This document shows positions 17,888 through 63,955 of a stretch of 64,000 nucleotides of DNA, piece by piece (position 1 is the first letter of the stretch; each line of letters starts with the position of its first letter). The translations under genes and the position numbers were made by a program. Under the pieces are notes generated by a model that was not told the origin of the DNA, did no database searches, and saw only the letters and a list, made by a program, of their open reading frames with translations. The DNA lies in assembly GCA_025924315.1 (NCBI GenBank), contig JAICIO010000003.1, positions 62,001 through 126,000 on the forward strand, written 5' to 3'. This DNA is from Phycisphaerae bacterium (GTDB taxonomy: Bacteria > Planctomycetota > Phycisphaerae > Tepidisphaerales > Tepidisphaeraceae).

Positions 17888-17894
17888 TTCCTTC

Positions 17895-17951
17895 TTGTAG
17901 GGTGTGCTTCAGCACACCGGGTCGGATGGTGTGCTGAAGCACACCCTACAA
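17895..17951. repeat. GTAG-type REP pair, GGTGTGC stem subfamily
   Basis: A near-perfect inverted repeat from TTGTAG to CTACAA. Each arm is GTAG followed by GGTGTGC-TTCA-GCACACC. Relative to the copies at 40787 and 61135, the GTAG foot and TTCA loop are the same but the stem differs on both sides in a compensating way. It lies between actE and actF. Confidence 0.88.
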
Positions 17952-17964
17952 AAACTCCGATCGC

Positions 17965-40724: not shown

Positions 40725-40786
40725 AGGGTGGATTAATCTAGCGGGGGTGGGCTAAAGGGCAACAGACGGCTCATTGTGGAATTGTC

Positions 40787-40865
40787 CTCGTAGGGTCCGC
40801 TTCAGCGGACCGGTTATTCGCCTTTCGTTCAAAAGTAACCGGTCCGCTGAAGCGGACCCTACGAG
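40787..40865. repeat. GTAG-type REP pair, GGTCCGC stem subfamily
   Basis: Perfect outer arms CTCGTAGGGTCCGC...GCGGACCCTACGAG. Each arm is GTAG plus GGTCCGC-TTCA-GCGGACC. The inner spacer ends share CCGGTTA(TT) and (AG)TAACCGG. Another copy is at 61135-61211 and a half copy at 517-575. Confidence 0.9.
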
Positions 40866-40881
40866 GGGATCAAACTACGTG

Positions 40882-45848: not shown

Positions 45849-45920
45849 TGAACCACGAATGGACACCAATGAACACGAATCAGAAATCCATTCGTGAAGA
45901 TTCGTGTTCATTCGTGGTTC
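45849..45920. repeat. inverted repeat with arms of ten-base (xxxCACGAAT) words
   Basis: The left arm on the plus strand is AACCACGAAT, GGACACCAAT, GAACACGAAT. The right arm on the minus strand is AACCACGAAT, GAACACGAAT, CTTCACGAAT. Period is ten bases. It lies in the divergent gap before the bifunctional nuclease gene. Confidence 0.8.
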
Positions 45921-61125: not shown

Positions 61126-61134
61126 TCGGCATTC

Positions 61135-61211
61135 GTAGGGTCCGCTTCAGCGGACCGGTTATTTGCCTTTTTCGAAATTAAGAGTAACCGGTCCGCTGAA
61201 GCGGACCCTAC
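61135..61211. repeat. GTAG-type REP pair, GGTCCGC stem subfamily
   Basis: Outer arms GTAGGGTCCGC...GCGGACCCTAC, each a GTAG foot plus GGTCCGC-TTCA-GCGGACC, as at 40787. The spacer is TTTGCCTTTTTCGAAATTAA-like and contains a central TTCGAA. It ends one base before the pyrC stop codon. Confidence 0.9.
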
Positions 61212-61212
61212 A

Positions 61213-62484
61213 TCAGGCAGTCAGCTCCCACTTCACCTGCCCATCGACGATCGTGTGCGTCGCTCGGCCTTTCAGCTTCCACCCATTGAACGGACAATTG
61301 CGGCTGAAGCTCTTGAACTGTTCTACGTCCACCGTCCATTCGTGATTCGGATCGATGATCGTCACATCGGCGATCGCGCCCTCTGCTAACGTTCCTCGAT
61401 CCAGGCTGACAATTTGAGCGGGCCGCGTGCTCATCAGGTCGATGAGCTTCATCCAATCGATGTGGCCGGGCTCGACGAGCGCTTTGATGTACAGCGAGAG
61501 CGCGCATTCGATCGAGATGATGCCGAACGGAGCGTAAGGAAACTCGAGTTCCTTTTCTTCCGCTAAATGCGGCGCGTGATCGGTCGCGAGGCAGTCGATG
61601 GTGCCGTCTTTCACGCCTTCGATGCACGCCGCGACGTCGGCAGCGGTACGCAGCGGCGGGTTCATCTTGTAGTTCGTGTCGAACGTCCGGCAGTTTTCGT
61701 CGGTCAGAAGCAGATGGTGCGGCGCGACCTCGGCGGTCACGTTGTGCTTGTTTCGCTTTGCCTGGCGGATCAGCTCGACGCTCCACGCGGTGCTGATGTG
61801 CTGCACGTGATACCGCCCCGCGATCGTGCGATTGAGCAGCAGATCGCGCGCGATCATCAATTGTTCCGCCTCAGCGGGAATCCCACCGAGACCGAGGGCC
61901 GTCGAAACCAATCCCGCGTGCATCGATCCGCCGCTGAGGGTTGGCTCTTCGCAGTGCTGCATGATCACCGCGTCGAACATCTTCGCGTACTGCAGCGCCT
62001 TGCGCATGACCGACGCATCTGCCACGCCGACGCCATCGTCGCTGAACGCGATCGCCCCGCGTTGCTGCATCGACCCAATCTCCGCCAGCTCTTTCCCCTC
62101 GCGGCCTTTCGTGATCGCGCCGATCGGATGCACGTTGCACAACCCGACGCGCTCGCCCTCACGACAAACAAACTCAATCAATCCTTCGTTATCCAGGGCC
62201 GGCTTCGTATTCGGCATGCAGCAAACGGTAGTAAATCCCCCCGCCACCGCCGCCGCCGCCCCGGACGCGATCGTCTCCTCCTCCTCGTCCCCCGGCTCGC
62301 GAAAGTGGACATGAATATCGATGAGCCCGGGCACAACGTAGCATCCGGACGCGTCAATCGTTCGCTCTGCTTTGATCGGTATGGCCTCCGAGATCCTCCC
62401 ATCAACGATGAGCAAATCCCCCTTCCGCTGAAGCGCGCGAGAGGGATCAAGGATCGTGCCGTTTTGGATGAGGATGGAGGGCAT
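61213..62484 (-). CDS. pyrC: dihydroorotase (class I)
   Basis: 423 residues, normal size. It cyclises carbamoyl-aspartate to dihydroorotate in pyrimidine synthesis. The zinc-binding motif HVHFREPGDEEEET starts at His57 or nearby. The conserved VCCMPNTKPALDN, HCEEPTLSG, HISTA and LATDHAPH blocks are all intact, ending in the aspartate that serves as catalytic base. The ATG at 62484 sits directly beside the inverted-repeat arm and has no recognisable ribosome binding site. It would naturally follow pyrB, but a small cassette separates them. Confidence 0.97.
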   Translation of the reverse strand: MPSILIQNGTILDPSRALQRKGDLLIVDGRISEAIPIKAERTIDASGCYVVPGLIDIHVHFREPGDEEEETIASGAAAAVAGGFTTVCCMPNTKPALDNEGLIEFVCREGERVGLCNVHPIGAITKGREGKELAEIGSMQQRGAIAFSDDGVGVADASVMRKALQYAKMFDAVIMQHCEEPTLSGGSMHAGLVSTALGLGGIPAEAEQLMIARDLLLNRTIAGRYHVQHISTAWSVELIRQAKRNKHNVTAEVAPHHLLLTDENCRTFDTNYKMNPPLRTAADVAACIEGVKDGTIDCLATDHAPHLAEEKELEFPYAPFGIISIECALSLYIKALVEPGHIDWMKLIDLMSTRPAQIVSLDRGTLAEGAIADVTIIDPNHEWTVDVEQFKSFSRNCPFNGWKLKGRATHTIVDGQVKWELTA

Positions 62485-62485
62485 A

Positions 62486-62520
62486 GCGCAAAGATCTCAA
62501 AGCTGCAAAGAGCGCAAAGG
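62486..62520. repeat. left arm of the GxxExxY cassette (CTTTGCGxT words)
   Basis: Read on the minus strand, the arm is CTTTGCGCT, CTTTGCAG, CTTTGAGAT, CTTTGCGC, about 8-9 bases per word. It begins one base from the pyrC start and ends one base from the GxxExxY stop. Confidence 0.85.
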
Positions 62521-62521
62521 T

Positions 62522-62959
62522 TTATTCGGGTTCGGCCTCGGCACGGAATACTCTATGGATTCCTTGTTTCAGGATCATCACATTGAAATTGATGAGCAAG
62601 CCCAACGGCAATTTCAATATCTTCAGATAGCGAATGACTTGCCTCCGATCAATCGGATGCAGAGTCTCCACGGATTTCACTTCAAGAACGAGCTTCTCCT
62701 CGATCAGGAAGTCGACGCGGACGGACGCTACAGGCTGTCCCTTATATTCAACAACCAATCGAAGTTGACGCCGAAAGCAAATACCGTGGTCCTGAAACTC
62801 GATAGCCAGCGCGTTTTCGTAGGCAATCTCCGGTAATCCTGGTCCCAACTCGCGATGCACTGTGATCGCAATTCCAATCACGCGATGCGCAAGCGAATTA
62901 ATCTCCTCTGACGGCTGAGCCAATTCACTGTACGGGCTATGCTCATCGTCGAATGACAT
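62522..62959 (-). CDS. GxxExxY family protein (predicted PD-(D/E)xK nuclease fold)
   Basis: 145 residues from the ATG at 62959, with AAGGAA about ten bases upstream whose AAGG comes from the cassette's right arm. The family signature is GLPEIAYE (Gly41, Glu44, Tyr47, Glu48). The downstream core VDFLIEEKLVLEVKS gives Asp83, Glu93 and Lys95, the D-x(9)-ExK pattern of the PD-(D/E)xK nuclease superfamily. The function of the family is unknown. Here the gene fills the space between two inverted repeat arms, inside pyrB-pyrC. Confidence 0.93.
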   Translation of the reverse strand: MSFDDEHSPYSELAQPSEEINSLAHRVIGIAITVHRELGPGLPEIAYENALAIEFQDHGICFRRQLRLVVEYKGQPVASVRVDFLIEEKLVLEVKSVETLHPIDRRQVIRYLKILKLPLGLLINFNVMILKQGIHRVFRAEAEPE

Positions 62960-62971
62960 TGAATCGAAATT

Positions 62972-63007
62972 CCTTTGCGCTCTCTGCGATCTTAGCGATC
63001 TTTGCGC
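62972..63007. repeat. right arm of the GxxExxY cassette (CTTTGCGxT words)
   Basis: On the plus strand the arm is CTTTGCGCT, CTCTGCGAT, CTTAGCGAT, CTTTGCGC in nine-base phase, inverted relative to the left arm. It ends 6 bases from the pyrB stop codon at 63014. Confidence 0.85.
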
Positions 63008-63013
63008 AACACC

Positions 63014-63955
63014 TCACACCAAAACCTGCCCAACCAGAAACAGCACCGCCATTCGGATCGCCAGGCCGTTCGTTACCTGCTGAAGGATGCCGCTTTGGGG
63101 GCCATCCGCGATGTCGCTGCTGATTTCTATGCCTCGGTTCATGGGGCCGGGGTGCATGACGAAGACGTCTTTTTTGCAGCGTTGAAAGCGGTCCCAGGTC
63201 AGGCCGAAAAATCTTGTGAATTCGCGGACGCTGGGGAACTGGCTGCTTTTGATGCGCTCGAACTGGACACGGAGCATGTTGATGACGTCCACTTCCCCGA
63301 CGATCTCGTCAAAATTGTGGACGACTCTTGCGCCGAGTTGTTCGAAGCTTTTGGGAAGCAGCGTTGGCGGGCCGACGAGGATCACCTCGGCCCCTAGCTT
63401 TGTGAGCGCGAAGAGGTTCGAGCGGGCGACGCGAGAGTTGGCGATGTCGCCGACGATCGCGACTTTCAGGCCTTCGATTCGGCCGAAACGCTCGCGCATC
63501 GTGTAAAGATCGAGCAGGCCCTGCGTCGGATGTTCGTGCGCACCGTCGCCCGCGTTGACGACGCTGCATTTCATGGTCTTGGCGAGTTGCAGGGCTGCGC
63601 CGGCCGCGCTGTGGCGAATCACGATGATGTCCACGCCCATCGCTTCGATATTGCGCGCGGTGTCGATCAGCGTTTCGCCTTTGCTGACGCTACTGCCCTT
63701 GCCGGAGAAATCGAGGATATCGGCGCTCAATCGTTGCGCCGCCAATGTGAAGCTCGTTCGCGTGCGGGTGGAATCTTCAAAGAATGCGTTGACGACGACG
63801 CGGCCCCTCAACGCAGGAACTTTCTTGATGCTGCGTGTCGAAACTTCTTTGAACGAGTCGGCCGTGTCGAGCACGAAGCGGATGTCGTCGGCCGACAGTT
63901 GTTCGAGGCCGAGGAGGTGCTTGTGCGTCCAGCGATGTTGCGTTTCAGCGGTCAT
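63014..63955 (-). CDS. pyrB: aspartate carbamoyltransferase catalytic subunit
   Basis: 313 residues. It condenses aspartate with carbamoyl phosphate in the first committed step of pyrimidine synthesis. The carbamoyl-phosphate motif STRTRTSF is at about 61-68, and HPTQGLLDLYTM (about 141-152) and KVAIVGDIANSRVARSN are conserved. VFVMHPGPMNRG near 263 is the aspartate-binding region. It is transcribed toward the cassette and pyrC. No pyrR or regulatory pyrI is visible at the window edge. Confidence 0.97.
   Translation of the reverse strand: MTAETQHRWTHKHLLGLEQLSADDIRFVLDTADSFKEVSTRSIKKVPALRGRVVVNAFFEDSTRTRTSFTLAAQRLSADILDFSGKGSSVSKGETLIDTARNIEAMGVDIIVIRHSAAGAALQLAKTMKCSVVNAGDGAHEHPTQGLLDLYTMRERFGRIEGLKVAIVGDIANSRVARSNLFALTKLGAEVILVGPPTLLPKSFEQLGARVVHNFDEIVGEVDVINMLRVQFERIKSSQFPSVREFTRFFGLTWDRFQRCKKDVFVMHPGPMNRGIEISSDIADGPQSGILQQVTNGLAIRMAVLFLVGQVLV

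Follow-up and report, generated by a model that had tools for sequence, protein, structure and literature searches.

A predicted GxxExxY nuclease gene between inverted tandem-word arms at a Phycisphaerae pyrB-pyrC junction: a candidate one-gene selfish element

The pyrB-pyrC cassette and its predicted nuclease

The stretch of DNA analysed here (the window, 64,000 nucleotides from a contig of a Phycisphaerae bacterium) contains the adjacent host genes pyrB and pyrC, and the gap between them is filled by a single cassette (62486-63007) consisting of an arm, a GxxExxY gene and a second, inverted arm (Table 1). Each arm comprises four words of 8-9 bp, and the spacing is extremely tight, with 6 bases between the pyrB stop codon and the 5' arm, 12 between this arm and the gene, and a single base both between the gene and the 3' arm and between the 3' arm and the pyrC start. 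A preliminary description, made from the sequence alone, had claimed this layout, including the completeness of the gene, the spacings within the cassette and the filling of the gap, and it held to the base. Within the window, tandem CTTTGCG pairs are confined to the cassette arms: a search for CTTTGCGNTCTTTGCG that tolerated at most 2 mismatches recovered 5 matches, every one of them within the arms, as against 0.41 expected (0 of 100 shuffles). No Rfam match at the gathering score was recovered in the cassette region. The proposal that the arm supplies the ribosome binding site of the gene is plausible but weak, resting on a putative AAAGGA about 12 bases before the ATG.

Table 1. Features of the cassette, its host genes and the related palindrome in the window
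Feature	Position	Strand	Basis
GxxExxY gene, PD-(D/E)xK nuclease PF13366/TIGR04256 (predicted), 145 aa	62522-62959	-	profile match, conserved residues, structure model
5' arm (upstream of nuclease gene), four tandem 9-bp CGCAAAG-type words, inward-reading	62972-63007	.	sequence, word search
3' arm (downstream), same four words inverted, CTTTGCG outward from gene	62486-62520	.	sequence, word search
pyrB, aspartate carbamoyltransferase, upstream host gene	63014-63955	-	profile match
pyrC, dihydroorotase, downstream host gene	61213-62484	-	profile match
Gene-less palindrome, tandem CACGAAT words, 9-bp loop	about 45849-45920	.	word search; one related palindrome in window
Catalytic residues of the window nuclease (predicted)	Glu44, Asp83, Glu93, Lys95, Gln107, Tyr111		predicted from conservation

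A separate family of REP-like palindromes with a CGCTTCAGCG/GCTTCAGC core (GTAGGGTSYGCTTCAGCRSACC) is also found in the window, at 17891-17954, 40785-40866 and 61134-61211, the last of these just beyond the end of pyrC.

Profile searches matched the window protein to both PF13366 and the TIGR04256 GxxExxY model with 128 bits each (curated cut-offs 22 and 35). The eponymous motif (Gly41-Glu44-Tyr47) is conserved in its relatives. The D-x(9)-ExK nuclease pattern previously claimed for it (Asp83, Glu93, Lys95) held, with all three residues, as well as Tyr111, being invariant among diverse relatives, Gln107 invariant or nearly so, and Glu44 conserved. The conservation of this active site suggests that the protein is likely to be an active nuclease. 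A confident structure model (pLDDT 89.6) has as its nearest PDB neighbour the Cas4 protein SSO0001 (Z 9.2), followed at lower ranks by other Cas4 proteins, RecB-type and lambda-type exonucleases and Hjc resolvases, and PADLOC Cas4 profiles gave weak hits (E 0.012-0.027). The protein is therefore a predicted PD-(D/E)xK nuclease of the Cas4/RecB type, with the likeness to Cas4 based only on the fold and a weak profile match. The protein contains one cysteine in all (Cys61), and no cysteine is invariant among its relatives. No sequence relative of it was found in the PDB. A published pipeline has likewise called GxxExxY where another tool saw cas4 (PMC8934634).

A toxin-antitoxin or known defence system was considered and rejected, given that there is a single gene between the arms, without a partner, and no confident match in the PADLOC defence library. 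Carriage by phages or plasmids was likewise rejected as the main route of spread, with the nuclease found in none of 50,697 phage records and, rarely, on plasmids (8 of 72,556). In the open-access literature searched, we found GxxExxY named in passing and no function described for GxxExxY/PF13366, nor any description of its arms, cassette or mobility; an earlier account might exist in preprints or subscription journals outside this search.

Inverted tandem words flank most GxxExxY genes and track the nuclease tree

The absence of arms at other GxxExxY genes, which would have refuted the preliminary description, was not borne out. We collected 129 GxxExxY genes within the family and the wider phylum, using a single-protein query that favours one subfamily, and scored 260-bp flanks on each side for inverted repeats. 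A score of at least 18 was reached by about 80% of these genes as against 3.4% for a control of swapped flanks. Among 379 other ORFs of the loci retrieved, 5.8% also reached it, and most of these high scorers were GxxExxY genes fetched again. The second GxxExxY gene of the same genome also possesses inverted arms, with a different word (TTGTCCACGAAGGACACGAAGGGACACGAAG ... ATTCGTGTCCCTTCGTGTCCTTCGTGGACAA). A wider sample of 32 loci from named organisms extends the arms to Cyanobacteria, Chloroflexi, Verrucomicrobia, Bacteroidota, Alpha- and Betaproteobacteria and Ignavibacteria, with 15 of the 32 scoring at least 18 (3.5% expected) and 26 scoring at least 12 (19% expected). On a plasmid of Bacteroides finegoldii, for example, a copy with CACAGAG arms lies between radA and the gene for an FAD protein. 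Up to 15 copies occur per genome, in varied places. A minority of the genes lack clear arms (e.g. L168, L220, L222 and L264).

Individual loci show further variations. The gene at L168 (G047:C3) has weak arms, with an inverted-repeat score of 8. Two GxxExxY genes, at L263 (on a plasmid of Gemmatirosa kalamazoonensis) and at L055 (G024), have a whole palindrome on each side in place of a single arm, as if each gene were flanked by two gene-less elements.

The arms are made up of tandem words of 8-10 bp in direct orientation, with the purine-rich strand first in 122 of 128 cases. Nearly all words are variants of C-R-C-N-R-A-G/T/A with a period of 9-10 bp, including CACAGAG, CGCAGAG, CACGAAG, CACGGAG, CGCAAAG, CGCGAAG, CGCCAAG, CACAGAT and CACGAAT; the word caller was limited to this type, a restriction that does not apply to the arm search by inverted-repeat score. 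The two arms of a given cassette have a word in common, and it differs between cassettes, even within one genome. On a tree of 157 proteins we observed 71 word changes as against 101.5 under a free shuffle, and when words were shuffled only within genomes the expectation was 84.3±2.4, with 0 of 200 replicates as low as the observed value. Words thus track the nuclease tree even against the within-genome shuffle, indicating that the arms and the nuclease travel as one unit, and host composition does not explain the arm words. This concordance demonstrates co-inheritance; it is not by itself proof of recognition.

Filled and empty junctions and dispersed gene-less palindromes

In a survey of the pyrB-pyrC junction in 24 family genomes with pyrB, a GxxExxY cassette was present in five, including that of the window, with three different words among them, and in one further genome an arm at this position is followed by the end of the contig. 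In five sister genomes the junction is cleanly empty, with only -1 to 19 bases between the two genes, and a 70-bp word remnant persists in another family genome; hence the second potential refutation of the preliminary description, a lack of empty pyrB-pyrC sites in sister genomes, was not borne out either. In one genome (L186, G025) the gap is instead occupied by a HigB-like toxin and an HTH partner (by Pfam matches). A different pair of small ORFs, by eye of the VapBC type, was observed in the gap of L195 (G018). Together these two pairs suggest that the gap accepts several kinds of small cassette. Monophyly of the five GxxExxY occupants, tested on 27 proteins, was rejected (p-AU 0.018), which makes at least two arrivals likely.

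Empty orthologous sites in sister genomes were also recovered by a joined-flank search for L145, L142, L086, L165, L152 and L105, and by position for L108. The empty sites gave no evidence of a target-site duplication or of exact excision, the spacers of sister genomes being too diverged to show either, and none of the REP loops yielded a readable target-site duplication. In terms of location, 103 of the 129 cassettes follow a co-directional gene and 79 lie between two co-directional genes, with medians, in these 79, of 6 bases from the preceding stop codon to the upstream arm and 10 bases from the downstream arm to the next start. These values fit the earlier guess that the nuclease may recognise gaps after stop codons, though recognition as such is inferred. 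The filled gaps include moxR-DUF58, groES-groEL, pheS-pheT and argG-argH, named by eye from the flanking translations, and those at radA and fabD-fabG, known from annotation; pyrB-pyrC, moxR-DUF58, groES-groEL and argG-argH are repeatedly filled in distant genomes. Moreover, the same junction can hold different nuclease lineages with different words, as in L044/L073 and L210/L217.

At several shared junctions the nuclease is far less conserved than its neighbours: 72% versus 95% identity for L152/L157, 76% versus 95% for L044/L045, and 42-50% versus 78-85% at pyrB-pyrC. In other pairs (L061/L063, L105/L109, L099/L121) it is as conserved as its neighbours, and within-genus shared junctions can show high protein identity (94% for L061/L063, 96% for L199/L200). 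The divergence is compatible both with replacement by a new cassette and with rapid joint evolution. L157 carries an identical run of 29 bases on either side of its gene, and in its counterpart L152 both flanks have a different word; the arms of one cassette thus change jointly, with their match being kept. Hence, the gene and its inverted tandem-word arms are inherited as one unit, which shows a presence/absence pattern at orthologous junctions and sits wall-to-wall in stop-start gaps.

Palindromes without a gene, built of the cassette words, are scattered through the genomes that carry cassettes. Pattern searches of the window's own genome recovered about 20 of them, typically 74-82 bp long with loops of 8-22 bases, all intergenic and rarely between divergent genes; most correspond to the arms of the second cassette and others have the CTTTGCG words of the window cassette. 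The proposed link between the cassette and empty tandem-word inverted repeats therefore held, but only one of these lies in the window (Table 1), and the others, with CTTTGCG or CTTCGTG words, are elsewhere in the genome. Palindromes can also be nested: a CATCTGTG palindrome has L034 in its loop, and an unrelated GTAGCACGGGTT palindrome holds L018, L027 and L035 between its arms.

In a comparison of 246 genomes, at least three tandem CTCTGTG arrays were present in 39 of 112 genomes with GxxExxY as against 6 of 134 without it (p 4e-10), and CTTCGTG and CATCTGTG arrays showed an association in the same direction; these counts derive in part from the cassette arms themselves. A same-word test was significant for CTTCGTG and not for CTCTGTG or CATCTGTG, with cassette sampling being incomplete. 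Arrays also occur without a detected GxxExxY gene, namely 55 CTTCGTG arrays in G076 and 10 CTCTGTG arrays in G230, a 99% complete genome without a PF13366 match, and in the window's own genome no cassette matches the CTCTGTG and CATCTGTG arrays that are present. At L281 (G037:C7:30200-30950) CACAGAG arms surround a hydrophobic ORF of 110 aa, without a Pfam match, instead of GxxExxY.

Two further genomes deserve mention. In G210 (L268-L280) the CTCTGTG palindromes have inner parts of about 80-200 bases, in contrast to the short loops of the window's own genome, and some contain nested palindromes of CAGAT words (e.g. L270). Identical CTTCGTGGTCTTCGTG arrays are found throughout the genome of G106, in two cases at bases 85-100 of a contig; this recurrence and the contig-edge positions suggest one multi-copy element that breaks the assembly.

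Proposed mechanism, rival explanations and relationship to known systems

Taken together, these features make the cassette look like a selfish mobile gene of a kind not yet described, which appears to have repeatedly settled in gene gaps across many phyla, putatively spreading along with its repeats. We favour, with moderate confidence and without laboratory data on movement or cleavage, the explanation that the unit is a one-gene selfish element following a logic similar to that of the RAYT-REP systems with a different enzyme. In this view, the nuclease would recognise both its own arms and the gene-less palindromes by their tandem words, whether in duplex form or as a folded strand, and would make its cut at an arm end or close to it. 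DNA freed or broken in this way might then be copied, with either host repair or the nuclease doing the copying, into the loop of an existing palindrome or into a fresh stop-start gap. Given that most copies lie between co-directional genes, expression is probably by read-through from the host operon. The original reading as a selfish or mobile nuclease cassette is thus supported, with movement by the nuclease remaining an inference, as does its recognition of the arm words, for which there are no binding or cleavage data. A bolder version, for which the case could fall either way, is that these cassettes represent a new class of transposable element, in which a single Cas4/RecB-like nuclease, acting alone, moves its own gene as well as gene-less palindromes via tandem-word ends, with the word changing along with the enzyme, and targets stop-start gaps in operons in many phyla.

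Of the rivals, one that we consider unlikely is a homing-like drive without transposition, in which the nuclease would cut a cassette-free stop-start junction acquired by gene exchange and repair would copy the cassette in, with the arms being regulatory or protecting against self-cutting; spread would be allelic, and the same junctions would be refilled. It is favoured by the filling of the four junctions listed above in distant genomes, and by the presence of a stand-alone nuclease without a transposase that evolves faster than its flanks. However, the junction sequences are short and diverged, diverse junctions without an obvious common target are used, and the gene-less palindromes that carry the cassette words at unrelated loci could not have arisen without movement to new sites. 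Also unlikely is the possibility that the palindromes are host features, i.e. sites for nucleoid or regulatory proteins or mRNA hairpins spread by other machinery, with GxxExxY as captured cargo. In its favour, Geobacter metallireducens has paired tandem repeats of this type, including TCTCCGTS[Y], that have been read as global regulator sites (PMC2700814), arrays occur in genomes without the gene, and the arm pair of L281 surrounds another ORF. Against it, word and nuclease lineage are concordant within genomes and the array load tracks the presence of GxxExxY; moreover, the arms vary from cassette to cassette within a genome, so that no single host protein could read every one. Finally, an ordinary, vertically inherited operon gene, with the arms as mRNA-stabilising or terminator hairpins and the empty junctions as losses, has support from the highly identical within-genus junctions but is very unlikely in light of the different lineages and words at the same junction, the rejected monophyly of the pyrB-pyrC occupants and the multiple, variously placed copies per genome.

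If the selfish-element explanation is true, it would provide a function for GxxExxY, a widespread nuclease family for which we found none described, and an origin for dispersed tandem-word palindromes (CTTTGCG, CTCTGTG, CTTCGTG and kin), earlier read as regulator sites in one genome. It would also imply at least two origins for the RAYT-REP lifestyle, the second of them in a PD-(D/E)xK nuclease. The dozens of natural enzyme-word pairs would form a candidate panel for DNA-recognition specificity, testable in Bacteroides or filamentous cyanobacteria, and the cassette would exemplify a mobile gene settling between operon genes.

Comparisons with known systems offer partial parallels. Of the two marks of a classical insertion sequence, inverted ends are present, and the spacers are too diverged to reveal whether there is a target-site duplication. 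The definition of a homing endonuclease gene proper is not met, as the cassettes lie between genes and not inside a conserved gene, intron or intein. The predicted fold and the catalytic order D...ExK...QxxxY are reminiscent of Cas4, RecB and lambda exonuclease; unlike Cas4, the 145-residue window protein lacks iron-sulphur cysteines and a cas1/cas2 or helicase partner, and it is found in a pyr operon context. The paired tandem repeats of G. metallireducens (classes 1-3, attributed to IHF/HU or a regulator) resemble the arms in being tandem 7-9-bp repeats on opposite strands at variable distance in intergenic regions (e.g. proB-proA), and their class 2 consensus, cited above, belongs to the same word family; however, the relevant sections of that study report no nuclease gene, mobility or co-variation.

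The closest parallel is with the RAYT-REP/REPIN systems (Nunvar 2010, PMC2817692; Bertels and Rainey 2011, PMC3116915), in which an enzyme gene lies between inverted dispersed repeats, co-varies with them, evolves faster than its neighbours and shows paired change at orthologous sites (PMC2817692). The cassettes similarly consist of one gene for a DNA-cutting enzyme (cutting being predicted here) with a dispersed repeat on either side in inverted orientation; the repeats co-vary with the enzyme, the enzyme outpaces its neighbours, orthologous copies keep paired repeats even as these change, and gene-less doublets are scattered through the genome. RAYTs, however, are HUH/Y1 tyrosine transposases of the IS200/IS605 kind, whereas PF13366 is the sole match here and the predicted fold is Cas4-like; likewise, their repeats are palindromes headed by a conserved GTAG tetranucleotide, as opposed to tandem 8-10-bp words. 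In comparison with RAYT-REP, GxxExxY cassettes fill stop-start gaps, occur in many copies per genome and are found in several phyla. Thus, by analogy, the GxxExxY cassette might work like a RAYT-REP system without being a member of that group, since both its enzyme and its repeat structure differ.
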